NCBI GenBank assembly: GCA_025435555.1
Contig: JAIWWG010000108.1
Location: forward strand, 1 to 64,000
Direction of reading: 5' to 3'
Length of the DNA stretch: 64,000 nucleotides
From: Chytriomyces cf. hyalinus JEL632
Taxonomy: Eukaryota; Chytridiomycota; Chytridiomycetes; Chytridiales; Chytriomycetaceae
Below the pieces are notes generated by a model. That model did no database searches. It saw only the letters and a list, made by a program, of their open reading frames with translations, and was not told where the DNA came from. Position 1 is the first letter of the stretch. Each line of letters starts with the position of its first letter. The translations under genes were made by a program, and so were the position numbers. This document shows positions 18,601 through 64,000 of this stretch, piece after piece.

Positions 18601-21401
18601 CAGAGTATCAGTTGTCACTGAATCTGAAGCTTCAGGAAGTGCAAATTAGTGGCGATCCAATCAATGGCTCGCTTCACTCATTTTTCTCGACACTTCAGTT
18701 CAAAGATATTGTGGATGAATCTGATGCTGTGTTGTCTCATCGATATCAGCTGGTATACGCGGTCGGACATCATACAAGTTTGTCGGATGGACCTTCACGG
18801 TGGTGCCTTGTCCATGCCATTTTGGATCTCTTGAATACGAACCCAGTGCTTCAGAATCTATTGAACAACAAATTCGTCATGAGGGACAACACAGTTTCAA
18901 AGGCACAATTCCAGTGTTTGCGACTGGCTCCGCGAATCAACGGCAACGAAGAGCAAGAAAAGTTTTTGACCAAATTGTCAAATGGTATCATGCAAGTGCT
19001 GGTGGAAAATCCGCCCTACGAAATGACGTGGCTCAAATCAACCGAACGCGCATTTATCGAAGCTCTGAACGTGTTTGTCACCACACGGCAAACCACTCTT
19101 CAAAGTCTTCTTTCGATTCGTCGGCTTTCGCAAGTCCAGACGGCCCAAATTCTCATGCTGCGAGGGTTACTGGCGTTTGGTCTTCTGGAGCATTGTTTAT
19201 CTTTGCGTCATGCAGTTGACTATGGCCTGGACACACGCCGGCAGAAGCGAATGGCCGTTCCTTTCACTGCTGTCAGCGTGCCTTCAGAGCGTGCTGAATT
19301 CAGCCATCCAGACATCGTCATCATCTTGACAGCACTTTCTTTCTTCCATGTGGGTCTTACAAATGACCAAGTCAAAGCAGCCATCAGCTTTCTGCTGACA
19401 TTGGGTAAGTTTTTCCTTTGATTTCACCAAACAAAAGAAATTAAAAACAAGTCCTCAGCCAAAGGATCGCAGCAATATTACTACACTCGATGGTTCAAAT
19501 GCGTGCAATCTGAACTCACGCCGGTCGAGGCAGATTCAATCAGTAGGGCCGAAAAACTCGACTTGACCAATTCTTCAAAAGTCGAGTTGCTCTGCCGCAC
19601 TTACTCCAAATCCACAAACGTCATCAGCTTCTGGCTCGAAAAATGCGTGTACCCTGCAGACACCCAACATTACAGCAAGCGTATTGGTTCTTCTGCGTGG
19701 AATTTGGCGTCAGGATCGCACGTTGTTGGATTTTCGGGGACTAATGACAATGCGCTACTGCTGCCCGCTCAAGTTAATCAAGTCCCTTCTGAAGATGCGT
19801 CACTACGCGGCACCAATGGCATGATGATTGAGCGCATCATTTCAAAAACAGAAGAAGCCATCTTTTTTCCAGCTGAAAGTATCTGGGACCAGCTTGTCAG
19901 TCATTGTGTTTCTATTGGCGCAGTAGCATTGATTGACACGGGTTGCTTGCTGGCCGGCACTAGCAACGCGTCTTTTGCCAAGTCATTGATGAAACTCGTT
20001 ACTCCAACTGATTCACTGCGTGGTATCCTATACTTTGACATGAGTTTCGGCGACTGGATGGTCCTGGACATTGAAACCAGCCACGTAACGACCGAATCTC
20101 AATCTGCGATCCCAGCAAACATGTGTTTTGTCATTTTCGACGATGCTCGAACCCGCGGTGTGGACAAGAAACTGGCTCCAGATGCACTTGCACTTGTCAC
20201 ACTGGGGCCAAAGTTGAAGAAGGATAAACTCATGCAAGGCGCTGGGAGAATGCGGCAACTGGATGCTGGACAGCGGCTTGCGTTTTGCGGCACGAGCGAA
20301 GTGGAACAGAATATCCGCATGCAGTTGGGACTGAGCGAGAATGAGGAAATTGGTACCACGCATATTTTGCGGTGGACGCTCATTAATAACAAAAACGATT
20401 TGTCGGATGGGTTGCTTCAATGGGCCGACCAAGGAATCCATTTCGAGTCATGTCGCTTGGACCAGTCAAAAGCAGAAGTGGATGAAGACTGGGGTTTGGA
20501 AAGTCTGTATGCAGTAACTGACATCAAAACCCATCTTCCGAGTCACATTGAAGCCAGCATCCAGGCACGTGTTGGGGGATGCTCGGAACTGTGCCACGCT
20601 GTTGCAAAACGGACTCGAGAGCTTGGCCAGCAAATTGAAGTCCAGGTCAAACACGACCAAGAATGCGAGCGCGAATTGCAGCAGGAGAAGGAAAAGGAAA
20701 GCGAGAGAGAAGTTCAAATTGCATCTGAAGAAGCGGTCAACGAGCCTTCCTGGGCGTATAACAGCGTGTTGACCATGCGGTTGTTTATACCATTTGGATT
20801 CCCGACATCAATCCTTCCTCTGAAAGCAGCTGCATCAATGATTGGCGGTCTGCCGGGCTTGAAGCACGCAGATTGGAGCATTGCAAATGTCTGGGCCACT
20901 CAAAACTTTTGCACAACAGTTCTCGGTAAAGGTGCAAACTACCTCCGTTCTGTTGACTGTATGCTCTATTTCCCCACATCCGAGCACCTTCTCCTTGTCT
21001 CTGAAAAGGAAGCAGACGGCATCTTGCGAGAAATCTGGAACTGGACCAAGCCGGAATCCATCCACGTCGCATTAATCCATCTGAGTCAGCTGCGAAGCGT
21101 TGTGCACCAATCCTGCAAGGGAACGGACTCACCTGGAGGAGTCCAACTTTCTACTGGAGGCTCCACGAAAATTCCGCGTTGGGAGGAAGCTGCTATCGCC
21201 CAAGTGTTTAACGGCGATTCAAACATTACGCCTGCCGCTGACGTCGGGGGGAGACACCTTTCTCGGTCACTAAAATTGCTTCTGGAAAACTTGACCCGAG
21301 ATCTTTCTGCGCGTCATGCCGTTCCGGATTTGGTTGCTTCCCGGGGCCGCTCTTCGGAGTGGGATTTTTCACAGATGAAAACGATTTGCGAAAGAAGTTG
21401 A
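12638..21401 (+). CDS. Giant DUF3638/DUF3645 protein (often annotated as ubiquitinyl hydrolase)
   Basis: Six exons: 12638-13334, 13396-13848, 13914-14775, 14838-16305, 16359-19404 and 19459-21401, giving 2,822 residues, close to the usual 3,000 of the fungal family. Diagnostic segments are IRPNQYATALQM, then NMGEGKTRVIMPM near residue 1820 (the conserved P-loop-like motif of DUF3638) and VDESDAVLSHRYQLVY. Further on come the DUF3645 signature AVPFTAVSVPSERAEFSHP and LMQGAGRMRQLD near residue 2433, which resembles the last helicase motif. Together these suggest an SF2-helicase-like ATPase core. Databases often name such proteins ubiquitinyl hydrolase, and I do not see proof of that activity here. 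A Glu/Lys-rich coiled coil lies near 20640-20730. The N terminus is divergent from the usual start of the family but begins at the first good ATG. All five introns are 53-65 bases with GT-AG ends. Confidence 0.9.
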
Positions 21402-26805: not shown

Positions 26806-31330
<4,525 letters not shown>

Positions 31331-36444: not shown

Positions 36445-39400
36445 TTAGTTCACGACAATATCTGGCCGACAAAGGGAATCTACAACATTTTCAATCTCCT
36501 TGAACGCTCTCCCAATATCTCCCATGAACACCTCCGCAACCTCAGTGACTTCAAACTCGACAAGAATTTCCAGAGCTCCTTTAATTTCGATACAGCTGGA
36601 AGCGATGGATACATTGCTCGGGTCCCTGATGACTGTACAGTATGCTTTTTGTAGAGTGGTGATGCAGATCCACCGTTTGTCTCCTAAACTGTGGAGTGAT
36701 ATAATGCCCGTCATCCATTTTTCAAAAATCCAGCCAATCCCGTATCGTTGGATCTTGAAGACGCATAGTTTTCCGGCCTATTTTTGGTTTGTGGAAAATA
36801 AACATAAAAAAGGGAAACGAAACGACGTGATATCAGTCTCTCGAAATGAAAAGAAAGAATAAGAACGCGAAATCCGCCGCGTACCTTGTCCAAAACTCGG
36901 AACGAATAAAACTGTATCGTTTTACGCCGACTGAAACTAAGTTGCGTTTGCTTCGTAGACTTTCTCATGTACGAATCATCAGCACTGGCTTCATTATCGT
37001 GTTTGATGCGGACATGGCTTTGCATCACATCGGCAACGCGGCCTCCCAGCATGGTTCCAAGCATAGCAGTCGTTGAGATCCAAAGAATAATACAGATTTT
37101 AAAATCCGTCAATTTATCCGGCGCGCTTTCCATGGCAGCAATAAGGACAATATTCATAGCTGAAAACAGCGCAACGAGAACCATTTGAGTTGTTTCATTG
37201 TATTCAACGAGCTTCACTTTTGTAGACAGCGTCGCAGAAACGACAAGCAAGATCCATACGAGCGCGTTGGAAATGTACCAGATACATGTGGGTGCAACTA
37301 ATGCTCCCCGCACTGCACATCGAACATATGCCTCGCTGCCATCCACGACTTGAAGCGATACAACTTTTGCTTCCATCAATGCGAGCACGCAAACGCCCAC
37401 ATGTACCACGGCAGCTGTCACTGCCGACATTCTAAAAGCTGTTTTTGCTTTTCGGATTGCCTCCAATGTCCTTGACGATTCTTGACCAAAAATCCAGCGC
37501 ATCATCAAGTTTTTGGAGGCTAGAGGAACAAGAATTGCAGAGTATCCAACAAGCAAGAGCAGTGCCCGAGCATTGCACGCAGCAGAAGACGGCGTGTCCA
37601 GGACCAAAAGAAGTGACAAATACGCGCACGCAGCGCCAAAACAAATCACCAACATTTCCGGCAAACAAGAAGCACGAACAATCGACGCTCTCTGAAACTT
37701 GAACAAAAACAGCGCTCCAGCAGAGCTCGTCAGGATCCCAATGATGGACAAACAAACGATGGCTGTTCCTTCTTGTGTTTGCAGCGAGTATCGAAACTTG
37801 AAGATGCGCACGGAGCCGTCGCTTGGAATGACGGAGCTTCCGGAAAATATCGGGATGGTTTTATCGAAGCTGATGATGTTGGCTCTGCTGTTGTCTGTTC
37901 GCGCAAATTCGACGCCGTCTAAACTGTCCACGACTGTGTAAAAGCAAACAGGGCTTTTGCAAATAGTGAGTCGACAGAATGGGGATTGGATGATGCGAGT
38001 AGCTTACGATTCCCCATCTCCCTGCTCATTTAGTACCAAGTTGTTTACGCTCACGGTGCCAGCGAAACCTTTGAAAAAATAAAATAATAAACAAATAAAA
38101 AATGAGGAGGGGTTTAGTTTAGTTGAGCAACCACACTGAATAAGACCTACCAAGATTCTGGAACAGGGTAAAGTTCATATCATCTTGTGCCAGTCGGTTT
38201 GAAAGAATGTCTGGGGCAACTTGAAGCTGGCAGACTCATAATCAGCATTCAGTTTACCAAAACGCGTTTTTCACCTTGTCAAATCCCGCAAGCATCAAAA
38301 CTGTGCAGTCGTACATAATCTCGGCGGACACTCCGTAAAAGAAGGACGCACTAACATGCAAGGGCTGTTTTTTTAGAAACAAAAAACTGCCACGATAATT
38401 CAATTCTTACGAAAAGTTGGCGCCAGCAATTTGATTCATCAAGCTGCGCAAGTTTTCGCCTCGTTCTATGCTGGCCAGGTCGGTGCAATGGTTTGCCAGA
38501 ACAATACCCCGTACATCTGCCACATCCAAGTTTGGATCGGGTGTAAACCCGTTGTTTAAAAGCCAAACGTATTTTTGACCGTCGAGAAATAGACTCGCTC
38601 GACATTTCATGAGATCTGTAACAAAATACGCTTGTCCCAGCACGATAATGTACCGCGCGTCGGAGCGGTGTAAAGTTTCGTTCATCATGCGTATTGCCTG
38701 ATCGTCAGAGTTGGATGCCAGTCCCACGCTCGAAACAATGTCAATTTGATGGTCCGCGGCCATCTGCTTCATTCGCCGCCAGCCTATTTTTTTGATCAAG
38801 CAAAACCTTAGGACAAGAGAAAGCTGCAAACGTTAGCATCAACAAGTTACCAGAATTCCCGAATTCATCGTCGCGCTGGTAAATGATTGCGACGCGTTTA
38901 ACATCCCAGTACAGCATCAGAGACAGAAGGCTTTCTGTGAAACTGTACGAAGTTGCCCTCCAAAAGTACGGGTACATGTCTTTGTTGTTATATCGCGGTG
39001 CAGCAGTGGACGCTGCGCAGTACGGAATCTAAAAATGAAACGAAAGAAAAACAGTTGTGAGAATTTCGAGTGGTACTGTGTTTGGCGAAATAGTGTACTT
39101 GAGCATTGGACAATATTTGAGCAATGCCTTTGGCTGTCATGCTAAACTCGTTCCCAACAACGCCAATTACGTCTTTATGCTCGTCCGTTATATCTGTCGC
39201 GGTAACTGCTGAAGCGTAACCCCCGCTTTTGCCCGAGTACTCCAAATCCGCTGAAGGATAATACTCCCCGCAATCTGTAAATCTTTTCAAATTGACATGG
39301 ACCCCGGGCAAGATAGTCGGATCATTATTGATGCGCTCAACTGCGGCTACCACTGCAAGGTCTGCATAGTAGCTCCATCCAGAGTTTCCCTGTGTGGAAA

Positions 39401-39560
39401 TCGCATCGGCATCGAATCTCGTTGAAAAGTTGGCCACAAGAGACCGAGTGACCACGATGTTCTTGATTGCGCAGTAGTTGCTGATGATTCCCAAGGTGAT
39501 GTTCGTGTTAGCTGCCGCGGGCCAACAGCACGCAAGCGCTGCTAGGATTGCTAAAACCAT
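36445..39560 (-). CDS. Class C G-protein-coupled receptor (ligand-binding domain + 7TM)
   Basis: Eight exons on the minus strand: 39099-39560, 38851-39028, 38411-38783, 38275-38350, 38151-38226, 38008-38068, 36885-37923 and 36445-36753, giving 857 residues. A signal peptide (MVLAILAALACCWPAAA) leads into a periplasmic-binding-protein-like extracellular domain (about 20-420) with NSGWSYYADLAVVAAVERINNDP and VIGVVGNEFS. Next comes IPIFSGSSVIPSDG, the linker typical of this receptor group. Seven hydrophobic segments lie at about 465-720, and a C-terminal cytoplasmic tail of about 130 residues follows. The fold is that of the GABA-B/glutamate receptors, which couple ligand binding to heterotrimeric G proteins. 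The ligand is unknown. A second member starts at 63443. The acceptor of the seventh exon was placed at ggacag (37924) because the earlier CAG breaks the frame. Confidence 0.88.
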
Positions 39561-39902
39561 TGGCGCAAGTTGGGATTTACGCGCTTCAATTGAAAAAAAA
39601 AATGCGCTAGCGGGTACCAGAAGAAGAAGAGAGCTGTCTTTAACAAAGAATTCATCGAACGCCTGACTTTGCCTAGATCGTTCATGCCTGGGTTGGAGAC
39701 TGTTGTTGCTGATTGGTCGGGTACATAAAAGGCGGTAGGAAACGCCTCTTCTGTCGGTACATGAATTCTTTTTCTCGTATTTATTTCTCATTTCGATACG
39801 ACGTGACAGCCCGCGCTTTTTGTCCAGCAAGTTGGAACAGCGCCCATAAATATTTCCCTTAAAAAAAGTTAAATAAAGATCAACCTTAAAAAATACACAG
39901 CA
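39561..39902. promoter_or_regulatory. Divergent promoter, class C receptor / acyl-CoA-synthetase-like gene
   Basis: The starts at 39560 (-) and 39903 (+) face away across 342 bases. The part nearest the synthetase-like gene is AT-rich (ttaaataaag, aaaatacac). No coding signal is seen here. Confidence 0.5.
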
Positions 39903-42260
39903 ATGGCGTCGTATGAAGTGACACTCGGGCTCGGAGCAACAGCCATTGCGCTGTTTATGAAATGGCGCAGCGATCAGTTCCGCTCGGAAACATTTGGTAC
40001 TTACTCCCATCCACCGTCTCGTCTTGACCAAAGGAACTAACTCCCTTACAGACACGCATCCTGCTCTTTTGCGGAGCCAGACTGTCACGGCAGAGACACG
40101 GCAACGCGGCGAATGGGCCATCGTCCGAAACAGAGCAAGTTGCGTTTCTTTTTTCCCTTAAGTTCGTTTCAAAAGTTCAAGCTGACGCTCTTTCACCCTT
40201 TTCCAGCACCCTTCAACTCCAAAAACATTCCCCAGTTTGTCTCCAATGTGCATGAATCCATTGCGAAAGCGTTCGATTCCGGATCGCTGACGGCGGAGTT
40301 TGGAGACTCGATTTTCATTGGACAAGGGCTGGTAGCGTTGAATGTTGCGCAATCACCCGTTGGCGTGTTTGTGGAGAACTCGAAAGATGCTATCCTTGTT
40401 GATTTGGCCGGTATCTTGTACGGGTTTGCTACCGTCTGGATCGATGAGGAGGAGCCATCGCAGCTTCTGTCGGAGGTAATCTGGAAATGCCTGCCGAATT
40501 GATGTGTGAATAACCGTCGCCATCCTTGTTCAGGTTATTAATCAAGTGGATATGACTGTTGCCGTGACTTCACCTCAATCCCTGGGTTCTCTTCTTGACG
40601 CTGCGAGCAAGCATCCAAAGTTGACAGTAAGCTGCGTCCTTGAAATCCTTCAACGGTTTGACAACTGACTCCAGCCAATTAGACAATTGTCACCACAGCG
40701 TCCGCTGGTATTTCTCAACAAGACAACGACCGCGCTGCCGCGCTTAAAATTAAACTCATTTCTTTTGAAACCCTGAAAAGGTGAGTCAAAACTGCCCATA
40801 CGTTTTTTTAAGGCGTCTGCTAAACTTCATTTGTTGCAGCATTGGAAAAGAGAAATCTGTCGATCGCGTTAAACCGGAACTTTCGGATTTATATTCCATC
40901 GTTTATGAAAACGGTGAGACTTAATTTGTTGTGCCCGTAATGGTTTATTCAATCTATCCTTTTACAGAGCAGAATGGCGGTATTAAAGGAACAGAAATCA
41001 CATACCTAAACACATCTGTTGCGTGCATTTGCTTCTCTTTTCCTTGATCCCAACTTCTGTCTTACCTGGCTCATTGTGTCGTTTCTTGACAGGCCTCCGT
41101 CAGCGCAGTTTACATGACGTTCCCTCAACATGCCAAAATAAGCAGCGAGGATCTGTACATGAGCATCCTCCCAGTCTCGAGCATTTTTGAGCGTTGCTTG
41201 ATTCACGCGGTGTTGATTGCGTATGTTTCGCCCCTCTTTTTTCCTATGACGCATTTTATTTTTCACACTCACTTGAACTTTTGACAACATTGAGTGGAGG
41301 CAAAGTCGCGTTTTCTTCTGAAGACACTCTTATGAAAGATCTCGTTGCGCATGCACCAACGGTAGATTTTCCTTTCCTTTTTTATTCGCGAGACAACTCC
41401 CAGTTTTAATACCGTTCCCTTTTCAAGTTGATGCGCACAACGTCCCCAATCCTCTCCGATTTCGCCAACGCCATTGAGTCTCATGCAGACGCGAAAAGCT
41501 GGGCCGTGACTCAAGCGAAAGCCGCGAAATTAACCGAACTCGAAGAAGGCCGATGCTGGAAGGGAACGTTCTGGGATCGATTCTTGACCGACATTCAAAG
41601 CAAAACGTTTGGTGGACGCCTGAGATGTATTGTAAGCAAAAAAAAAAAAAAAAAAAAAAAAAAAGCGAGCCAGAATAGGATTGCGCATTTATTAAGGTTT
41701 TCCTTCTAAACAGTGGAATTCTTGCGAGGAAGCTGCTACCGATGCTGGAATCTTGGAAACCATTCGGTCTGTCCTTGGAACTCAAGTGATTGACACGTTT
41801 GGTATGACTGAGATATCCGGAATGGCATTCGCGACAGTGTATGGCGATTACCAGCCTGGAAACCACGTTGGTTAGTCACAAGTGGGGTGGAGCATATACT
41901 TTGTTGTCGTCTAACATTAGAAAAACAATGGAACCAATCAAGGGGTCCCAAGCGTCAATTTGGAGTACAAACTCGTGAACGCAGCGTCCAAAGAATACAC
42001 AATCACTGATGAACCCAATCCACGCGGCGAGGTTTGCAAATTACTTGATGATCAGAATGCGTTTCTTACGCACACCCAATTTTTTCTTGTTCCTCCCCGT
42101 TTTTTTTTTTTTGCAGATTTGGTTCCGTGGCCCAGGAGTTTCAAAGGCGTACCATAAAGATGCGGCAAAGATGGCGCGTTGCGTGACGGAGGAGGGTGGT
42201 TGGTTTAAATCAAACGTGTATGGACAGATTTTTCCAAACGGCACGTTGGGGCTGATTTAA
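39903..42260 (+). CDS. Degenerate long-chain acyl-CoA synthetase-like protein (probable pseudoenzyme)
   Basis: Thirteen exons: 39903-39996, 40052-40138, 40207-40475, 40534-40626, 40683-40780, 40840-40913, 40968-41017, 41093-41220, 41295-41361, 41428-41631, 41714-41870, 41943-42031 and 42117-42260, giving 517 residues against about 650-700 for active enzymes. An N-terminal membrane helix is followed by the AMP-binding fold: ILVDLAGILYGFATVWID, ILPVSSIFER, DTFGMTEISG, and EIWFRGPGVSKAYHKD. Two catalytic parts are lost. The ATP-binding loop, normally YTSGTTGxPKG, reads YENEQNGGIKG. The TGD near the end reads SNV. The protein stops right after NGTLGLI, so the hinge and the C-terminal domain with the catalytic Lys are absent. 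All exons remain open and correctly spliced, which argues against simple decay. It could be a regulatory or scaffold paralogue. Confidence 0.82.
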
Positions 42261-46406: not shown

Positions 46407-46674
46407 GCTTTGAGGTTACCGAGCTGTCTTTTTTTTTTTTTCAACAACATATGTCTTTTTTGGTTCCTCTCATTTTGAATTCTTGTTTTTCCCATCATCC
46501 ATTGTCTTCTTTTTGTTTTTTTTCCATGATCTTTTATTCGTGAAAAGGATAATTAAATGCATCATCATCATCATTATTATCATGGTTGTAAGCACGCCAT
46601 TGCTCTGTTGTTGCTACGGGGTGCATCAAATGCTATGCGGCATCGAAAAGAGAAGTTTCAGGAAAAAATAAGAG
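46407..46674. other. Intergenic before tRNA-Ala
   Basis: This 268-base stretch holds the 3' region of the second expansin-like gene, with a T-rich run near 46430 and a (CAT)n-like stretch near 46560-46580. It shows no gene. Confidence 0.5.
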
Positions 46675-46747
46675 TGGAGAACCTGGGCATTGATCCCAGT
46701 GCCTCTCGCATGCTAAGCGAGCGCTCTACCATTTGAGCTAGATCCCC
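46675..46747 (-). tRNA. tRNA-Ala (anticodon AGC)
   Basis: On the minus strand a full cloverleaf forms. The acceptor GGGGATC pairs with GTTCTCC (one G-U and one T-T mismatch). The D stem is GCTC/GAGC, the anticodon stem CTCGC/GCGAG with loop TTAGCAT (AGC), and the T stem CTGGG/CCCAG. The discriminator base is A. No intron. The single acceptor mismatch slightly lowers certainty that it is functional. Confidence 0.93.
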
Positions 46748-47734: not shown

Positions 47735-50700
47735 TCAAATCCTGCGTTGGCCTCCAATGCGGCCCAACGTCAAATTCGAAGCTGCTCCGATGCCGCCACC
47801 AATTTTGAGTAGACTTGGTTTGCATGTTTTCAGACTGTCCGCAAGTCCGGTAAAATGTTCCGAAAGTTTCACTTCATCAATTGCCTGATAAAACCCAGAA
47901 GTCGATCCGGATTTTGGCTTCACAGTTTGATTTTGCTCCACAAACTCAGCCATTGCTTGCAAAACAGTGCACCCTCCATAGTACCCCGAAAAAAGAACTG
48001 CGTAAAAATAAATTGTCTGCCTGCAAACACAAATTTGAGACTGGTGGTATAAAAAGAAATGGAGAAATCAGAACACCTACCCTCTCGCGTTGTTTTCGCG
48101 AACAAGACTGGAAAGTGAGTTCATTGGCATCGAGTCTTCGCCGTCAGACAAAAAGATTATGATTGGTGTCAAATCCCGATCATAATGAGCAGTAACAGAA
48201 GCTCTTATAGCCTCAACCGTGGAATGAAAGCTCGTGCCACCGGTCGCACGAGGGGACGAAATAAGAGTATCCAGAATACTGTTCGGGGTGAAATTTGCTA
48301 AGCCAGAACAAATGGTTTGCGCGTTGTGGTCAAACGTTATAAGTGTGATAATGTCTTTATCATTTGGCGTGTCGCTGTCAACCCCAGAGCGGATTGCAGA
48401 ATTTCTTGTTACGCAAAAGCGATAGGCAGCATCAATAGCAGCTCCAAAGCAATCCGGGTGTCTTGATCTGATTCTATTTCCGTATGGAGTACCGTGAAGA
48501 GGTCCACAATGCCCAGATTCCATGGATCCAGATCGATCGAGGGCGAATACCAAATGAAATCCAGCGACACTGCCAGAAGGATTCGAGCATCCGAACTGGT
48601 GGCCATCCCTTGAAATGTGACCCGATTGAGGTTGAATAGACGGGTCCAACGGTGCGTGAAACATTGGGAGTCGGCAGTACGACTTCAGACTGATAAAAGG
48701 ATCGTGCCCTTCTCCTGGCTTGTGCTCTTCACCAGAACACTCTGCATCGCACAGACTGAAAAACTTCTTCTCTTCTTCAGAATATGGGTCCTAAATCATG
48801 CAAGTAGATTGATATGTCAAAAGTGTCATAATTTGCGACTACGATCAACTGTACCTTAAATCCTGTTCTCTTCCAACACGTTTCATGGGTCACGTAGTCC
48901 TTTGGCTTGCTCGGATCCGGTAAGAGGGATTCGTGGATATGCTTGCTGCCTTCTCCGTCTCGATCGCATAAATGGGAGTCGTCCGGATGACGACACCAGT
49001 CAATGTGTGCGTGACGCTTCAGCTCTTTGCAGTACAACTGGCACAAGAAGCATTTTCCAGAATCATTTCGGTTGAACTTGTGCGGTCCATACTCAAATTC
49101 ATCTTCGTCCGCGTTCGTAAACACCGTCTGCTCCATGGACCCATGAGAGGTATCATGTTCACCCTGATGACCAACTTCAAGAGTGCAAAAGTAGTTGCAA
49201 AAAGGACACCTTTGATGGCAAAAGTGAAAGTCGTCTGGATTCTCGGTGTGAATGTGTAAACCACTGTGCTTGATTTCGTTGGGTGGAATCATGACGCTAC
49301 AGGGCAGTCTTTGGTGAACTTGCTTAAACTGTGAAAATCATGTCATCAGATGAGCAACATTTGCAATCGATATATAACTTTACCTTCGTATACGAAAACG
49401 AGCCATGGCTGTTGATATACGTGTCTTCGCAGGTTTGTGGTTGCATTTCGACTCGGCAGATTCCTTCCGATTCACACACCCCTTGACAGCGATGGGACGA
49501 TGCACACTGATGAACTGATCCACTCTCCAAGGCATGAAAATGATTGGTGCTCTGGCAGCGATGGGGGCATCCACTTATGGGACACTTAATTGGGCAAGCC
49601 AGTTGGTTCTCACAACGATGAAAGTCGTGCTCTTCTTCAACAGGGATAATGCACGAGTTTGCGCAGGCAAACAGGTCTCCGCCAGTCAGATTGGGATCTT
49701 CAACATCTCTGAGCGAGCAAGACGCGCCGCAGAAATGGGTTCGAGATTGGCACAGGTGCTCTCCTTTATGGTTCGACTGTTGGCTGCACGCCGTCTGGCA
49801 ATTTCTGCGACCTTTGTGGATGCACGGTTCTCCGCAAAGATGGGTCGACACTGAGCAAAGATGATCTCCTTCGTGTCCAGCCTTCATTCCACAGGGAGGA
49901 GTGGTTGCTTCTGATTCGACTTCACCATGCTCCGCCTGAAAACAGCAAAGCATTTTGCACTGAACAAGGGTTACGTTAGAACTGCGTTCAGGAAATTGTC
50001 TATTATCCAGTCCTACCTCGTGATCAGTCATACATGAGTGCTTTTCTGAGTGATTCTGAGACAGCAGGCACCGATAATCACAGTCACCGCAGGTCAACCC
50101 ACACAGCGTCCAAACTATTTTCAATTGCGTCAAACTTTGCTCAACCGTGTACGACAAGTTTGTAACCTCGACGTTGTCAGCGGGAAACCGCTCTGTGTTT
50201 TGTGCCAGCCAATCGTGGACTCGCTTTGACCGTCGATCCACCAGTTGAGTCAAGAATTCGCAAAACTCCTTGAACCAATCTGTATCAGACGACGCCGAAC
50301 TGCGCGGCTTCTTTGAGTCAAAGATGCTCGCAAAATTTGCAAGTAGCTCTGCGAAAGCAGTCGGTGTCATTTCCTTGTTTGCAGACAGTTCCATTACTTC
50401 ATAAAGCTTCAAGCCAGTATCAAGCTGGTGCATAAAAATTGATGTGGATTCATCTTCGACCTTCTCGGCGTCTTCCGGCGAAGTGGAATGAAGGTAGTCG
50501 CCAACTTCAGTCCCAGTGTCCTTGTTTTTCAGTACCTCTGGATACGGCTCCATTTCTTCCAAGCCCATACCAACAGCGCAAGGCATTGCGACATGAAGTT
50601 GAGCGCATCTCATGTTGATCAAGTTGGCGTCCAATCCTGACCAATCGCAAACTTTGAGCTTTGCCATCAAAACTTTGATTGACTTTGAAAAGATGAGCGC

Positions 50701-53700
50701 GTTTTGATATTTGCATTTCTGCGCGTCGAGCATGTTCTGAAGCTTGATAAGGTGCGTAAAAAAGGCCAAGTCATTGAATATCGGGTAGGGAACAATTGCC
50801 ACCCCGTTCCCATGCAAACGAGTGATGAAATTGTCTTCACCCTCTCGAGCAACCATCTCAGCAATCTTGTATTTGAATTCCGTCACGACACCTTCGCGAT
50901 CCGCAGGCGGAACGTCTTTGATAATGAGAGCGAGTTTCGAGGTGAACAGCTTCTTCCCATTCTGAGCATCAAAAAGATTGGCACCGTCTTGAAACCTACT
51001 GAACATGGCATTGGCATCTCGACCGATTGTGAAATTCGTTTTCATGAGAACCAAGCTGGAAGTCGCACAGTTGAACACGGTGAGGATGGCGTCTTCTTGA
51101 TGCGACCGTTCAATGCTTTGCAATCCTTCGAAATCAAGGCCGACGTAAATTGTCTTGGACTCATGTTTTGGTATCATCGACATCCATGCACCTTCAGTGC
51201 AGCGCTGTGAGGCTGAGATTAGTTAAACCGACCTTTTAAAAAATGCGAGCGTATTACCATTGCGCTTCCGTCGAAGGAGGTTCCAAGCAAGTGATTCAGC
51301 ATAAACGATTTTCCTGAGCTCTGCTCGCCCATGGATGAGACTACTTTGACTTGGTAGTTGCTGTAATATGTTATGATGCTTTCATACCACCCTTTACCAA
51401 TTGGATTAGTTCAGTGAACAACAAACACCAAAATTTCGCACCGAAGGAAATCGCTTCAGAGATGCTCCCGATATCAGGTTGCTCCACTTCTTGCGATACC
51501 ACTCCATCGCGCAGTGGTACAAATCGGTTTTGAGTCGCCATTGATATTTGTATTGGGATCAGACAAAAGGCTCGCACGAGCCAATCTCCAAACGTTTGCA
51601 CCTCGGAATATTCGCACTTCGCCGAAATGAAACTGGACACATCTGAATATCCATCGAGAGACACTATCATATTATTAAGCGACCGAGTGTCCTTGGTTGT
51701 GATCTTGCGGAGGTCTTCAAAAGAATTCTTCATGTGTCGTTGCAGTAGTTGAGTATACTTTCCCACCTCTTCACATGAAAACTGAGCGCCGATTGGAATT
51801 GCGGCAATGAAATTGCGATCTTTTGGTGCTACGTCACGATCCAAACAAGATTGCACTGGGAATTTGGTGAAAACGTTCTTGTACACATCGAGAAGGCCGC
51901 CTCTTCCCGCGCGACGCTCAATCCGATACTCAAGAAAAATGTTCTGAGTAGTTGTGACAGGCCTGTCAACCATCAAAACTGCATCTGAAGTTATTGCTGT
52001 TATTCGACGTCGCTCATTATTTGCAATGACGATATGATCGTCGACACGAGCATCATTCAAAAACTGCGTCCCGCGGCCAATAACGACCATCAAATCATCA
52101 GTGGAGATTTGCACGGCTCCAGAATACACTTTTCCTGGAGTCACTTTTCGGTTTTCTTGAAACTGCCAGCAGTGACGTTCGAGCGACACCTCTGCAATGA
52201 CGGAAACATACGCGCCGTTGTACACTGCTGTAAGATGAAGCTGTCGGTTGCGAACATTGATCATCTCCACCGAACGGGCCACTTCAGGGGTGAAGCTTGA
52301 AGGAAGTGGGACAATTATGTCAGCTGCCGATGTCGGCTGGGTGCAAAAGAAAATATGCGCCTCCAAGGTGCGAGCAGGATTTTCGTAAACCCCATCGACT
52401 TCAGGTTGTATGATTGATGTATCATCATCGGTCTCTGTGTTTGCATTTGGTGCGATAGGTTGCACGATGGCCATCAGACAAGATCCATCGTTCGTTGCAA
52501 TTACTCGGATAAATCCTGGAGGAAGAACAAACGCAGAAGGTCGAAACTCAGTTGTGACCAAGCTGTAAATTCGAACTCTTCCGCTTTTCTCCACAAAGCA
52601 TACTTCTTCACTCGTTGGAATGAAGATGACGTCGAATATGTCTGGCGATACGCCGTTGTACCAGGCGCCGATATTGATTTGCGGGTGCTTTATAAAAAGC
52701 TCGGTGAAACCTTCGTCAAAGCACATAACATTCAGCTGGAACATTGTGATGTTAGGTCAACATTGTCGACGCTATTAGTTCAAACGAACGACTTACATTT
52801 GCAGATTCTGAATCATACAAAGCCAACAGACTTTTCGACTCATCGAAGGAAATGTGAGATATTGGTCTCTTGAAAATTTTCAACGCGGTTGACTTTTCAA
52901 CTCGATGGCGTAAATCTTGAGAGCCGGTGATGGCAAGTGTATAACAGGACTGAATTTCTTGCAAGAACAAGAGGACATTCCCATTTTTTAAAATATACGC
53001 GCATCTGGCAACTATGGATGAGAACATAATTCAAAAATGAAATGTTTTTCATACCTGAATCGGAGCAACAGCGGATCTATATCAAATTCGATTTGATCGT
53101 ATGAGGTGAATCGAGGAGTGGGCACGAAGGTCTCATGTCCCTCGCCAGCTTCTAGAGTTTTAGCATCGTTTGCATCCAGATTCCCTTTCCACACCGAGTA
53201 TTTGACCAAAGCCGGCTTCGACATCTCCATTTCAAATGCGACATGAATTCTTTTTCTTGCAGACGGGTATCTTGAGTAGTAGTATCGCTCATCTGGACAG
53301 AGATAAATTACAATCGCGCACGGACTTTATCAAGTTCGTCCAGTCCTTACCTCCGACGCTTTTAATGAGAATAAGCCGTCTGGAGAAGTAATCCAATATG
53401 TGGCAGAGGTTTGTCAGCTGAAATACTGAAGCAAGTCGCATTCAAAAATTGCCACGAACCCAATTCCAAAACGTTCTGCCAGAATTTGTTTCGAAGTGGC
53501 CAATGCTGCTGGCAGATTTTTTTGAATAATTTCACGCCGATAGTTGAAGGCACGTGAATTGATAAGGTCTCGCGCTTTTGTAACATTGGGGAGAAATAGC
53601 CCATCTGCTGAAAACCCAGACCGCCATTCTGAATATGCCAAAAGAATCTCAGCGAGAATTGTTTTACAACGCAGCACCATCTGCTCTTTGACGCTCAGCT

Positions 53701-56389
53701 TTTTAAATTCTGCTGCGGGGATCTTGATTGACACGGGTCGACCAGCTTGCAGATCATACAATTCCAGTAATTTCAAATCGAGCTTTGATTCCTCAGCATT
53801 GTGGCCAGGAGAGGTTGAATCCATTGCAGTGGTCGGAACTTCGCATTGTCCACCAGCCGCATTTGGCACGCAGGGTGTGGCCATTCTTGCTGGGCTTGCA
53901 TATGTATCTTCAGCTGGTCTTGTCAATTTTCCTGCAATGGTACTGTCATCTGCAATGGTGCTGACATCCACATGGGAATCTTCGACTTTTCTGTCAGAAG
54001 TGACACCGCTTGCTTCAATTCCAGCATTTGCCGATATGGTTGCATTTATGAGTTTGGCTGCCCGGTCAACAAAATCAGAGTCGCTTGTTCGCATCAATTG
54101 AGCGTCGAGTTCGTCCTTGAGACATCTGAACCAGCCTACCGCATCAGTAGGAGGGCCATTTCGCACAAACGCAGCAACTTTCGCAATGAAATTATACGAT
54201 GGGACTCCTGTGACCGACTCAAGACGTTTTGAGCACTTTTTTAGAACATTGTCAACAGTTCGATTTCTCGAATTTATGCATATAGCGACCAGGGTTTTCG
54301 TTGAGTCAGCTTCAGGGGACTCGCGAGAAAGATGACTCGAGTAAATTTCAGATAGCATGAGCCGCTCTTTTATGGCTTTCCATTTTGGCCGATTGATGCT
54401 TGTCAACTTCGCTTTCAGCGCGGACTCATCAAGAGGAAAAAGCGCAGGCTTACGGAGTTGTTCATATCTGACTTGTCCGCTTGTAGGTTGAATGTGGGAT
54501 TCCGCAGGTGCACTTTCGGGCACAGAGACACAAATGAGAGGGCTGTGACCAGATACAGCATTTTCTTGCTCCGATATCATCGACTCCAAACTGGGGTAGA
54601 GTTCTCGTAATGTGCTTTTGATTTTGACTTCGAGAACAGCCTTGGAAGCAGCCAAATCCAGGTCTATCGCGGACTCTTGCTCCGCCCGAAACTCAGCAAG
54701 CTGCGCCTCCAAAGCAGCATCGAACTCTTTCAGCGGCTGGAGTATAAACTCTTTGTCCGCCATTGCAGGGTAAAGGAAATGCACAAACTTTTGAAACTCG
54801 TCGCGATTGACGGAGTCAGCAAAACGCAAGGTGCTCAATGTCTGCCCCCTAAAAAACTGTTGCAGTTCATCGGGCCCATAGTTGTCGTCAAACTTCTTCG
54901 TAATGCGCTGGCTTGGCACAGACTGGGTGGTTATGAATGCCAGCTGCTGTCTGCTTGGAGCAGGAACAGCAGAATCCAAGGACAAGCAGATTGCCCGGTG
55001 CGTAACGCGAAATCCATCACGAATACGGAAGTTTCTCTCCTTTTCTTGATTCTTGGTCACTTTGAACTCGAAAATGCCGCCATTGTCGACATCAAAGTCC
55101 TCGTCAAAATCCATTTCAAAGCCGTCTTTCTCATTGACAGCGGAGTGGGCTTCCCAATTGATAGAATTAACGTCTTCTCTTGACAGTAAGCAAATTTGCG
55201 TGTGGGTGAGTTTGTACATGAAGCTGCAAAAAAACAAAGTACTTCGTAAGTGGATATGCCACAAGGAAAACTCAAACGACGAAAAATCATGTTCGAAACA
55301 AGATGCTATCTGATATGAGGAAGTAATCGCACCTGTGCAGGTTCACAAGATTTTTTTTCAAATCACTGGACGCGTCATCATAGAAGCAGCCTTGTTCGGG
55401 CCAAAGTATCACAATCCCAGTGCTTTCTTTCATTGATAGGAAGTAAAGGCCGGGTTTCAGCCAAGAGGCCTCAGAATTCGACACCGCATCAGTTAGCATT
55501 TCAAAACTGTTGGACCAAAACATATTACTTTCAATTTGAGCCATTAAATACAGCAACTCACATTTGCTGATCGATCGTGTCAAGCTTTAAAAGCATGGCG
55601 GCCAGTGACTCGCGGTTTCCATAAACGCCAACCAACTTCATCTTTACCTCGCTCAGACGCTGAAAGTCAACGTTGGAAATGGATTTGAATGAGCCTGGGA
55701 CGAGTTGGTTACAAAGTTCCTTGACAGATCCTTGCGCGATGATGATTTTGTCAACTGCGAGAGAAAGTGGATGGTCCATCAATATGCTGTGTTTTCTCGC
55801 ATCATCAAGTTACCATACCTAATCCACTACATCCTGAGTCCTTGTAAAGCTCCAAGATTCTGAACAAGTTAGGGATTCTTTTCAAAACTTGATCAACTTC
55901 TGTTGTCGGGCGCGATGGTTCGAAGTCGAGTGCTTGGTCGCGGCTCAGTATGTAGTCCATATCCATGCCGTCATCTGAATCAAGCAGTTCAACGCTGAAA
56001 CCACCTGATTGTGGCTCTGCAGCCGGTGCAGCGATTAATTCTTTATCAGGCGTAGAGTCTTGAATGCCAGGGGTAGATTCTTGGATATCAAGCGCGTCAA
56101 GATGAATCGGGAGAAGGCCAAAGTCGTTGTCGTCATCGTCTCCAAACAGGTCCTCATCCTCATCCATGGGGACTTGGATCTCGGCGGCTGCCTGTGTTGA
56201 CTTTGTTTCATCTTGGAACTCGGCGGTTGCCTTTGTTGACTCTGCTTGATCTTGGAACTCGGCAGGTGCTGGTGCCAGGTCGACATCGCCAAAGATCGCC
56301 TCGTCCATCAGAGCCTGCATCTCGTTGGTTGGTTCCCTCGAGACGGGCGGATCGGCGTCGTTGCCGTTGCTGTCGTCAATCGTGCCCAT
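47735..56389 (-). CDS. Giant VLIG/GBP-like GTPase with Cys/His repeats and C-terminal VWA domain
   Basis: Thirteen exons on the minus strand: 55819-56389, 55562-55754, 55333-55506, 53460-55223, 53351-53379, 53055-53292, 52797-53004, 51429-52735, 51258-51360, 49384-51204, 48855-49328, 48081-48790 and 47735-48020, giving 2,625 residues. The N terminus is acidic and disordered. A long region without clear domains follows. The G domain has GEQSSGKS (about 1506-1513), CTEG for switch I and GLDFEG for the DxxG motif (about 1553), as in very large inducible and guanylate-binding GTPases. After it come Cys/His repeats of the form HxGxHxC (GHEGDHLC, NHKGEHLC), probably zinc-binding. The C terminus is a VWA domain with an intact metal site: DRSGS near 2379, GGTSF and LSDGED. 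An 81-base in-frame segment at 49938-50018 may be a further intron. The donor before the P-loop exon (gtgttt at 51428) was chosen to keep the frame. Role unknown; related GTPases act in defence or membrane remodelling. Confidence 0.85.
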
Positions 56390-56782: not shown

Positions 56783-59700
56783 TTAAAACATGTCCAGGCC
56801 ACGCTCCGCCACCCAACAAACCCAGTACAGAAACGATCCTGCAAATCGAACCGCCGTCAGTCCCGCAACGCTCCACAAGAGGAACGACAGGAAATAGTTG
56901 GGGTCGTTGTCGCGTGACATTTTCGAAATCACGGTCGAATTGGTCAAAATGTAGACGAGCAGGAAATTGGACAGGAACCAAGCAACCACCACGTACGTTC
57001 GGTAGTTTTTAAAATGGTCTGAACACAAAACATGCCCACATCAGCTGACCAATTTTAAACAGAAAAGAAATAAACGGAACGCACCTTCAGATGTAAAGTC
57101 GACTGGCTTTGAGTCCTCCTTTTGCGGCGGGTTTCGGAGCAGATAAGACATATTCTTGAGTTTCTCGAGCTCGTTGATATAGCTGGGAGCAGGCACGTCT
57201 GTGGCAGCGACTTCCTCACCCTTCTCATTCTTCTTCGACTTGACCGCCGGCGCGTGGGACGTGCTATCTTGGCCCTTTGTGCCCCAAGAAATGTCGTGGA
57301 TGTTGCAGACTAGAAGAAATCAATAAGTCTGCAACCAATTCCCCTGAAAACTCAAAGACTTACATGCATACACCATCAGCACATTGGTAAAAGTGGGTAT
57401 CATCAGCAAATACTGCAGCAAACACGTAATCGTGTGCCATGGATCCAAGTACAACAAACTGCTCAACACATACAGCGCGTACGTGCACATTAGCGAAACA
57501 GCCAAATCTCTGAATGATGCAACTCGTCCAATGTATCGAGCCACGTCAGTGAACCCGTGCACTGAAGTCGGAACGCCTTTGACTTGCAAAAACATGGTCC
57601 AACTGACAAGTGCAAGCATGAGAACCATGCACAGGGCAAAGATGAATGAAATGAAGATCACAAGGGTCTTGACGGTGTCAGGTTTGTTTCCAAGAGAAAC
57701 AAGTACCATGGTAATGAATGCAGTGATGTACGCTGCCTTCAAGGTTGCTGAGACGGCGGTACCATATGGAAAGAAAGGGTCTACTCCATATGTATCTACG
57801 ATAGCTTGTGTGCAGTCTGCAAACCTTTTGTCTGCGATATTGAACATGAACTAAGACAAAGAGTTAGTCCTTGCCGATACTTTGCCAGATGACAACAACT
57901 TACAAAAAAGCAAATGTACATGCTGGCAATATTGAACCACGAAAACGCCAAGTTGATTGCGTTATAAAACGTTTCAAGCAGCAAAATAAACTTTCTGTGC
58001 GGGTAGTGCCCCGAAGTCAAGATGCGGGTGAAATTTTGGACCGCGTAAGTGGACGCAAAGAAGGAGCCGTTGAACCATCGTCGGCGTTGCTTAATCAGAT
58101 CGTGCATTTCAGTGGGAACATCCGTCTCGGCTTTTGCGGATTTTACGTATTTCAGAACGTATTGGTTGTGAGCTTTCATCACCAATTCGAAGCACAGGAT
58201 GCGATCTTCAGCCCTGCACCAGGTGTTAGTTGGCCTCTCGAGATTGCATCAAAAAAGTTTAATGGTGCTCACAGGTACATGTTGGATTCAGAGACATTGG
58301 GCCGACCCACTGCAAACGGAATTCTCAGAACACGCTGACGAGAATTGAAGCGATCAACACAAAATGAACTCACCAATGCCATCAGCATGCAACTTCTCAC
58401 CCTTGAAATAACATTCAAGAGGCCTACCAAGAAGTGCTTTGTACCGGTATGCAGAAAACGCGCCCGGAAGAACAGAAATGTAGCCACACATGGACTCGAA
58501 CGGCTTATCCAAAATGTTTGACATTTTATACTCAAAGTTTTGGACTGCAACCAGTGGGTTCATGAGATTTTTCCACATGCTTCCCAACTCGGCGGCAATT
58601 TCTCCGCATGCTCCAGCAACGTTTTTGTTTCGGTCGAATGCTGTTGACAAGAACATCAGCATGCAGACAACAGACTCTACACCCACAAATAATCACCTCG
58701 ATACAAATGATAAAACGACTGCCGCGTAGGCCGAGTCCCAACATCCAACAAGATACAAACCTCGGGCTTCAACTTTTCACAAATCGAATTGAAAAACCAT
58801 CGATGCGAGTTGATTTTTTTAGCATTTTTTTCCTTGAGGACAAAGATGGTTTGCATCGGTACGACGGGTATCTCATGTTTTTGAGTGTCTCCACCGACAA
58901 AGCGAATGTTCAATTCTTGGTCGATACGAGCTTGCGTCGTGAATTCAAAAAAGTGGGCTTCCACTGGCTTTTCGTTCACTGTGGAGCGAGGTAGACCTTC
59001 AACGAAGCAGCCCATGGCTGATAAGACATCCAATGTTTGCTTGTTCATTGGACGAACGCCTGTGGCAATATTTTTAAGTATCGAATTCATCAAGAAGGCT
59101 TAGGGTTGGCGTACCGTCGGCGACAATGACCACAACTATTTCTTTCCATGCGAGGGCATTCCATCCTTTCTTTCCCAAGGAGCACAGGTATGAAATGTTG
59201 TCCATCACCGCTGATATGGTTTTAGTGAACAGCAACTCGTCCTCGTTGTACCTGAACAAGAACATTTCAGCCGAGAGCAAGTAGATTGCTTTTTTTAAAC
59301 CCTCTGCAATTACATTGTACACACAACTGCCAGTTTCGTCTTTCTGCCAATCATTGATTGCCTGACATTGTACTGTCTTCCAAAGTAGTTGGCATCACAA
59401 GTGACTGCAGTGTACCTGGAGAAGATTATCGGTTGTTCGTTTAAATGCCATGAAATATAAAGGGTCATGAAACAATGTCACCTCAAGTTGGTGAATTCCT
59501 CGTCCGTTCTGTGGTACACGTTGTTCAGGTATTCCTCTCCAAGAGGAATATCCACCACAAAGTTGCCGTCCGTCAAAACAACTTCCTTATTGACCATTTT
59601 TGTGGGTTTGCGCTGGAAGGGGGATCTTTGAAACCCCTTCTTCTCAGGCATCTGGAAAATAAAGTCGGGGTCGGATTTTGCAAAATGCTGGAAGGGCGCA

Positions 59701-60020: not shown

Positions 60021-60174
60021 GCGTGTGTGTGAATTGGGGGATCTTTTTTTGTTTTTCTTTTTGTGCGCGTTTGGATTTGGTTTGTTTTGATCGCGTTGTT
60101 TGTCATGAAAAAGGGTTCAAAAAGCCAAGCATTTTCTGTTCCAAACTTTGTTTATTTAAATAAATATTTACGTA
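60021..60174. promoter_or_regulatory. 154-base divergent promoter, chitin synthase / RNase III
   Basis: Start codons face away across 154 bases. The RNase III side has the AT-rich run tttatttaaataaatattta (60151-60170), a possible core element. Confidence 0.55.
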
Positions 60175-60876
60175 ATGAACAACACGATCGCCGGATACAC
60201 GTTCCGCAACGCCAGTCTCCTAAAAGCAGCGCTGGTACATCCAGGCGCATCGCCACCCCCTCCAGTCAACACACTGACCAGTTTCCAGCGCCTCGAGTTT
60301 CTCGGAGACGCAATCCTCAAAATGGTCGTGTCCGAGCGAGTCTTTCAAGAATACGCCACCGAAAACGAAGGCCAACTCACAAATCGAACAGCTACTCTCG
60401 TGAGCGCAGACGCATGCGGGAGAATGGCACGCATGGCCGACATGCATAAACGAATGACGGTGGCTGTGAACGCAGATCTCGAAAACTCATCCATCCTTTG
60501 CGACGCATTTGAAGCGTTGGTGGGTGCGGTTTATTTGGATGGGGGCAGCAAGATGGGACACGTGTCTGTTTGGTTGAATGGGTTTGTCGACAAGATTGAG
60601 ACGGAGAACCGTCGGGCCGAGCTCGCTAATCCTATTGCTGCGCTTCAAATTCTGTGTCAGAAGACGCTTGCGTTCCAGGAGTTGCCTGCGTACACTTCGG
60701 ACTGCGTTCAGGACAAGGGAGTGATACGGCTGTTCACAAGCGCCGTCTCCCACCCAAATCTTCCCAATGTCGTTGGCCGCGGTCAAGCAAGCAGCATCAA
60801 GAAGGCCAAAGCAAACGCGGCTGAGGACATGATACAGCAGCTCAGTCAAGACTTGGCGTCAGTGAAAATCGAATGA
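60175..60876 (+). CDS. Ribonuclease III (single RIII domain + dsRNA-binding domain)
   Basis: Intronless frame of 233 residues with the layout of bacterial and simple fungal RNase III. The endonuclease signature is FQRLEFLGDAILK near residues 38-50, carrying the catalytic Glu and Asp. DAFEALVGAVYLDGG near 103-117 supplies the second Asp/Glu pair. The first Glu of the usual ERLEFLGD is Gln here. That position is less critical, so activity is likely. A C-terminal dsRNA-binding domain follows (NPIAALQILCQKT ... KKAKANAAEDMI). The enzyme cuts double-stranded RNA and could act on rRNA, snoRNA or mRNA, or in mitochondria. No clear targeting peptide. Confidence 0.9.
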   Translation: MNNTIAGYTFRNASLLKAALVHPGASPPPPVNTLTSFQRLEFLGDAILKMVVSERVFQEYATENEGQLTNRTATLVSADACGRMARMADMHKRMTVAVNADLENSSILCDAFEALVGAVYLDGGSKMGHVSVWLNGFVDKIETENRRAELANPIAALQILCQKTLAFQELPAYTSDCVQDKGVIRLFTSAVSHPNLPNVVGRGQASSIKKAKANAAEDMIQQLSQDLASVKIE

Positions 60877-63288: not shown

Positions 63289-63442
63289 ACCACGCCAAAA
63301 TGTCTCATTCATATATTCCTTGAATAGGAAAATAAAATAAACACGACTGAATTTTTTTATTCACCCCACGTAAATCCCTCTTGCACCAAGTCTGTTACCT
63401 GACAGAGGCAGCCGCCAACTTCCCTCCACCAAAACACCAAAA

Positions 63443-64000
63443 ATGAAAGCCACGAAATTCAACATCACGATTGCTTCCATTGCAAACTATTGCACAATTC
63501 CAAACATGGAGTTCAACGGATCCCTTGGCATCGAAGGAACCTACCCGCAATCCTACGACTCCACTCTACTCGATCTGTACGGCAACTCCGGCTGGGCGTA
63601 TCTCGGAGACGCAGGAATCCGTGCAGCCATTGACCGCGTCAACAACGATCCGAATATACTTCCAAATGTCCATGTGAATTTGAAGCGATTTACAGACTGT
63701 GGCGCGTACTATCCTGAAGCAGATTTGGAGTATTGGGGAAACTCGGCGGGATACGTGTCGGCAGTGACGGGGATGGAGATTGTTTATAATCATACGGATG
63801 TGATTGGAGTTGTTGGGAACGAGTTTTCTTCAACGGCGCCGGGTGTGGCACAGATTCTTGGCAACAACAAGGTCAGTTTTCCATCCAACAAGGAAACCTG
63901 GTTTTGCCAGCTGCGATCATTGCGCAAAGTGAAAAATAGTTGTCACTGTTCACTAATTGTGGGGGGTGTGTTGTAGATTCCTTACTGCTCCGCAAGCATG
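63443..64000 (+). CDS. Start of a second class C receptor (partial, runs off the window)
   Basis: Exon 1 at 63443-63871 (143 codons) and the first 24 bases of exon 2 from 63977. It carries the ligand-binding domain start NSGWAYLGDAGIRAAIDRVNNDP and VIGVVGNEFSS, paralogous to the receptor at 36445-39560. The first intron falls at the same place, between AQIL-type and IPYC residues. The visible N terminus (MKATKFNITIASIANYC) has no signal peptide, unlike the other copy. Either an upstream exon is unplaced, or this copy is not secreted through the usual route. Confidence 0.82.

Follow-up and report, generated by a model that had tools for sequence, protein, structure and literature searches.

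The gene and the protein it codes for

We have analyzed a stretch of 64,000 nucleotides from Chytriomyces cf. hyalinus JEL632 (contig JAIWWG010000108.1, positions 1 to 64,000, from here on the window) and, within it, positions 47735 to 56389 of the minus strand, which look like a real single-copy gene for one very large protein. The strand holds long open stretches in changing frames, with the first ATG at 56389 and a stop codon that ends at 47735, the same limits that had been set in a first-pass annotation. The spliced model has 13 exons and 12 introns and gives 2,650 amino acids (aa) in one phase-consistent frame with a terminal stop only. One open frame, the motifs of a G domain and of a VWA domain and a strong enrichment in Cys and His are found in it, arranged as follows.

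47735..56389, minus strand: whole coding region, 13 exons, 2650 aa (spliced model, intron candidates, codon scores)
55819..56389, minus strand: exon 1, acidic, probably disordered N-terminus, aa 1-190 (sequence, composition, hydropathy)
51420..55754, minus strand: region before the G domain, aa 191-1519, no family over the curated cut-off (Pfam, PDB, AlphaFold)
50707..51360, minus strand: G domain, aa 1520-1720, exons 9 and 10 with intron 51257-51205 (Pfam GBP/URGCP_GTPase/RHD3, PDB matches, motifs)
51306..51329, minus strand: P-loop GEQSSGKS, aa 1531 (read from the sequence)
48713..50103, minus strand: Cys/His-rich block, aa ~1922-2345, exons 10-12, probable zinc-binding array (composition and spacing)
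47873..48556, minus strand: VWA domain, aa ~2398-2605, exons 12 and 13 with intron 48080-48021 (PF13519, metal-site motifs)

The G domain

Four motifs define the G domain: GEQSSGKS at aa 1531, RCTEG at 1555, DFEG at 1578 and IIKD at 1648 (G1, G2-like, G3 and G4-like, respectively). The GBP profile (PF02263) gave 29.8 bits on the spliced protein and 32.1 on the isolated aa 1521-1716, passing its cut-off of 21.1. URGCP_GTPase (PF25683) had the best E-value of all families (4e-10 and 6e-11), with 39.4 bits on the spliced protein and 42.2 on the isolated domain, below its cut-off of 55, and RHD3_GTPase (PF05879) gave 32.7 and 36.0 bits, below its cut-off of 42.4. On the spliced protein these matches centre on aa 1522-1618. 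Exon 10 alone scored 15.3 bits with the GBP profile. In a phmmer search of the PDB, GBP2 and GBP1 came first (E 4e-4 to 8e-4) and Sey1 next (E 0.002); the P-loop, the switch-I Thr and the DxEG motif align to those of GBP2 and GBP1. These results bear out the earlier description of the domain as VLIG/GBP-like. The NCBIfam search of the domain returned no family. The guanine motif of the GBP family is TLRD/RD, and an RD motif of the TLRD type is absent here, IIKD at aa 1648 standing instead.

The genome carries a separate Sey1-like gene, on contig C29, two exons of which score 165 and 118 bits with RHD3, compared with 36.0 bits for the whole spliced G domain described here and 20.1 for its P-loop exon alone. 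The two proteins share 60% identity over 25 residues only, at the P-loop, and the guanine motif of the Sey1-like gene is VIRD. A grouping with a household GTPase family, which would have spoken against the first-pass reading, was thus not found for Sey1, judged by these scores and this short match. By its profile scores and motifs, the predicted G domain belongs to the branch of GBP, URGCP-VLIG and atlastin-Sey1 and, as far as tested, is not that of the household Sey1-like gene.

The Cys/His-rich block and the VWA domain

The 431 residues of aa 1915-2345 include 42 Cys and 37 His. In this segment, which was picked after being seen, the spacing CxxxC occurs 14 times against 3.9 ± 1.8 in shuffled versions, none of 1000 reaching 14, and [GN]Hx[GE]xH four times against 0.05 (0 of 1000). 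The other patterns are less extreme: H...H.C three times against 0.31 (reached in 4 of 1000), H.{2,4}H.C five times against 0.82 (3 of 1000) and C.{2,4}C 18 times against 10.9 ± 2.9 (16 of 1000). The first-pass annotation had spoken of a run of HxGxHxC repeats. The enrichment is indeed strong, but that wording overstates the regularity, since there are just two exact copies of the motif, at aa 1998 and 2033, with HSEKHSC at 1939 as a third H...H.C. Searches with aa 1901-2320 found no family in Pfam at E up to 10, hence no Pfam zinc finger, and no match among PDB sequences. From composition and spacing we predict that the block is probably a zinc-binding array.

All three motifs of the metal ion-dependent adhesion site (MIDAS) are present in the VWA domain (DRSGS at aa 2404, Thr 2505 in GGTS and Asp 2535 in LSDG), in agreement with the complete metal site that had been proposed. 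The profile scores lie close to the limits: PF13519 gave 27.3 bits on the isolated domain (cut-off 27) and 26.4 and 23.5, below the cut-off, on two other cuts, while PF00092 reached 23.1 bits, below its cut-off of 23.8, and did not return this gene in an exon-wise search of the genome. The PDB sequence search of the domain had no match and NCBIfam gave weak matches only, far below cut-offs.

The N-terminal part and the predicted location

The first 100 residues have 28 Asp/Glu and 3 Lys/Arg. Nothing over the cut-off was found by Pfam in aa 1-1100 (weak GPAT_C and GRAM only), and the best PDB match of aa 164-1174 had an E-value of 0.65, so the long N-terminal part is, as stated before, without a known domain.

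No signal peptide was seen, the first 40 residues being without a hydrophobic segment (best value 0.14). The best 19-residue hydropathy mean in the whole protein is 1.37; elsewhere in the window, two membrane proteins reach 3.09 and 2.54, and two further frames 1.12 and 1.71. A simple hydropathy scan, with no dedicated predictor, gave no membrane hairpin of the Sey1/atlastin type, and the C-terminus is QRRI, not a CaaX box. The 2,650-aa protein is thus predicted to be most likely cytosolic. The VWA domain had been called adhesion-type, a label that fits poorly with a protein in which neither a signal peptide nor a transmembrane segment can be seen; judging from the same hydropathy values, the domain is more likely intracellular.

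The gene model

Frame-change sites on the minus strand were scanned for phase-keeping GT..AG introns and the exons were then joined; intron 1 (55818-55755) was placed by eye and the other 11 introns were taken from the computed candidates. The exons are:

Exon 1: 56389-55819, minus strand
Exon 2: 55754-55562, minus strand
Exon 3: 55506-55300, minus strand
Exon 4: 55223-53473, minus strand
Exon 5: 53425-53351, minus strand
Exon 6: 53292-53055, minus strand
Exon 7: 53004-52797, minus strand
Exon 8: 52735-51420, minus strand
Exon 9: 51360-51258, minus strand
Exon 10: 51204-49384, minus strand
Exon 11: 49328-48855, minus strand
Exon 12: 48790-48081, minus strand
Exon 13: 48020-47735, minus strand

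All 12 introns are GT..AG, with lengths of 47-76 base pairs (bp). Nine donors are ordinary (GTATGG, GTGAGT, GTAAGG, GTATGA, GTAAGT, GTAATA, GTAAAG, GTACAG, GTAGGT) and three are weak (GTTTCG at 55299, GTTTTG at 53472 and GTTCAC at 51419), so that the protein sequence is uncertain around aa 313-323, 907 and 1515-1523. For each weak donor there were competing candidates, and we chose by judgement, looking at the phase and at whether the protein made sense; other intron candidates were present at all six junctions examined for alternatives. The sole alternative intron tried, 51387-51350, barely shifts the scores of the isolated G domain (GBP 32.5, URGCP_GTPase 41.4 and RHD3 35.9 bits). A codon-preference score, for which nine further open frames of the window served as the training set, ranked the frame of the model first of six in 10 of the 13 exons, by small margins; the misses were exons 5, 7 and 11.

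Copy number and genomic context

We searched the host genome (37.8 Mb in 242 contigs) with aa 164-1174 and aa 1509-2608 and found no paralogs by protein search. Besides the gene itself there were two weak matches, on contigs C1 and C208, both falling within the VWA segment of the query; a repeat search recovered that of C208 and left the C1 locus unmatched at E up to 1. We rejected both as paralogs. At the level of exons, three VWA matches were located elsewhere in the genome (C208, C100 and C191). By the searches used, the gene appears to be single-copy.

The URGCP profile also matched loci on contigs C14 and C210, which by eye are dynamin-type P-loop genes. These two stretches (L023, G000:C14:71-178, and L024, G000:C210:21418-21528) are near-identical to each other and could be Mx-like (MxF) genes.

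Outside the host genome, five pattern searches of viral contigs returned 7, 10, 0, 0 and 10 stretches with no relative among them; one of the sets of 10 was compared by tblastn and gave five weak matches; the strongest (E 0.067) coincides with the motif used for the search, and we judged it to be chance. A pattern search of genome contigs returned 59 stretches and no relative, and a second one five stretches with a best tblastn E-value of 0.49, again judged to be chance. The searches with 7 and 59 stretches and that with 10 stretches that did not use tblastn reach close relatives only. As the collections consist of prokaryotes, viruses and plasmids, and part of the searches had this short reach, these negatives say nothing about fungi.

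The nearest identified neighbours of the gene are a tRNA-Ala gene downstream (46674-46747) and a chitin synthase gene upstream (Pfam match at 57799-58248, 28.3 bits, cut-off 27). The chitin synthase and the shortness of the introns are in keeping with a fungal genome, and the class C receptor-type genes listed below could point to a chytrid. Further genes of the window are:

12632-21401, plus strand: probably a second giant protein, assumed to be one gene; its frame 16263-19418 has DUF3638 (195 bits), DUF3645 and a Walker-A-like GEGKT, and the flanking frames 12632-13387 and 19425-21398 have no Pfam match
28188-29150, minus strand: two stretches of C1 (phorbol ester/diacylglycerol-binding) domains, which probably belong to a protein kinase C gene
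36711-40157, minus strand: class C receptor-type gene (7tm_3 59.5 bits; ANF_receptor-like 21 bits, cut-off 25.4)
60160-60876, plus strand: compact RNase III with a dsRNA-binding motif
63374-63976, plus strand: class C receptor-type, resembling 38988-40157 by eye, without a Pfam match

A possible GTP-driven assembly protein

The reading that we favour, and which we consider about evenly balanced between being right and wrong, is that of a giant cytosolic GTPase whose assembly is driven by GTP and whose tail recognises a target in a metal-dependent way, a variant within the branch of the dynamin superfamily that comprises GBP, URGCP-VLIG and atlastin. The G domain would bind GTP, and G domains would probably dimerise face to face, a dimerisation that may drive the formation of a higher-order scaffold or coat. 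The Cys/His modules, probably with zinc, and the MIDAS-bearing VWA domain would recognise a partner or a surface in a manner dependent on divalent metals, and the large N-terminal region would supply further protein contacts. There is precedent for such a mechanism in human cells. According to one study, GBP1 dimerises and polymerises upon GTP binding and hydrolysis, and human GVIN1, for which AlphaFold3 predicted LG-LG dimers, coats cytosolic Burkholderia thailandensis (PMC11974893).

Several points weigh against this interpretation. The URGCP_GTPase and RHD3 scores are both under their cut-offs, the G4-like KD differs from the RD of the Sey1-like gene of the same genome, and the motifs are read from this one sequence. 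In an exon-wise search of the genome with the URGCP profile, the P-loop exon of the Sey1-like gene scored 30.1 bits and that of the gene described here 15.1, which means that part of the URGCP match is common to the whole branch. The same type of search with the GBP profile gave no match, this gene included, and the controls were silent too; further GBPs could therefore be present in the genome all the same. Single-exon AlphaFold models made without an alignment were unusable (mean predicted local distance difference test, pLDDT, of 34.7 for aa 1555-2161 and 31.7 for aa 1082-1519). The function itself would follow from the fold class alone.

A role in defence had also been proposed. The protein would then be an effector that forms a coat on bacteria inside the cell or on virus factories, in the manner of GBP1 and GVIN1 on bacteria in human cells, and the resemblance of the G domain to GBP and URGCP/VLIG-like GTPases is in keeping with this. 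Immune GTPase families are typically expanded, and the single copy found in the own-genome search is mildly contrary; the neighbours identified, tRNA-Ala and chitin synthase, provide no defence context either. Nothing in the sequence directly supports the proposal, and we regard it as unlikely. Relatives of dynamin-superfamily immune GTPases do have a fungal precedent in the Mx-like MxF proteins, described across fungi, chytrids included (PMC11789081). The GBP family has also been noted outside animals: one of the expressed sequence tags surveyed in the fungus Blastocladiella emersonii is described as "similar to Interferon-induced guanylate-binding protein" (PMC1550239), and Dictyostelium has one GBP homolog, the function of which is stated there as unknown (PMC8565484).

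The working part could instead be the Cys/His array together with the VWA domain, in a protein-handling or ubiquitin-linked adaptor of which the G domain would be the regulator. From aa 1922 on, the tail of about 730 aa far exceeds the G domain in size, and intracellular VWA domains and Cys/His arrays often work in multiprotein complexes. However, Pfam returned neither a RING nor a U-box domain, nor any known family of zinc fingers, and we give this possibility little weight. A membrane-remodelling GTPase of the atlastin/Sey1 type is decidedly improbable: the RHD3 profile does give 32.7-36.0 bits and the 25 residues around the P-loop are 60% identical to those of the Sey1-like gene, but the genome already has that separate gene, the RHD3 score is under the cut-off of 42.4, and the protein has no strong hydrophobic segment. 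Finally, we see very little chance that two or more adjacent genes were wrongly joined, for example a separate N-terminal part and a G-Cys/His-VWA gene, because, even if the model is read from DNA alone, has three weak donors with alternatives (55299, 53472, 51419) and codon scores weakly above those of other frames (not above in exons 5, 7 and 11), every intron is at most 76 bp, leaving no space for intergenic sequence, all phases agree and there are no internal stops; the earlier assignment to one giant protein and not to two transcripts therefore holds at the DNA level.

To return to the GTP-driven assembly protein, a more specific form of it, in our view improbable as it stands, would be an undescribed fungal branch in which target choice lies with the metal-dependent Cys/His-VWA tail and coat polymerisation with the G domain, a counterpart of the GVIN1/GBP coatomer used for defence or on the own organelles or large assemblies of the cell. 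If the protein did act like GBP or GVIN, GTP-driven protein coats would be placed in fungi, and a genetically tractable system would be at hand to ask whether immune GTPases arose from a general scaffold function.

Comparison with known systems

Among open-licence papers we found none on fungal VLIG/GBP/VWA combinations of this architecture and none on PANTHER PTHR22796, and the location, the GTPase activity and the knock-out phenotype of such a protein would probably be new for that reason. The sequence databases probably hold relatives already: giant "VWFA domain-containing" proteins assigned to PTHR22796, which would occur in many fungi with the same G-Cys/His-VWA order. If so, the protein would be one member of an uncharacterised fungal family and not unique.

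With RHD3/Sey1/atlastin (PF05879) the protein shares a related G domain (36 bits), but the score is below the cut-off, a strong hydrophobic segment is missing and the Sey1-like gene is separate. The GBPs (PF02263; human GBP1 and GBP2) are alike in the G domain, which is over the Pfam cut-off, and differ in length, with 577-603 aa in the seven longest GBP chains among the PDB matches listed against 2650 aa here. KD replaces TLRD/RD, the Cys/His block and the VWA tail are added, and the CaaX end is absent. In GBPs a helical C-terminal domain follows the G domain; in the protein described here, the segment from the G domain up to the VWA domain has no Pfam match over a cut-off, and the quality of its structure model is too low for the fold to be read. 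As to the URGCP/VLIG-GVIN giant GTPases (PF25683), the published domain description of human GVIN1 has two LG domains in 1808 aa and mentions neither a VWA domain nor a Cys/His block (PMC11974893), unlike the protein described here with its one G domain in 2650 aa; this family has in common with it the best E-value for the G domain and the giant size.

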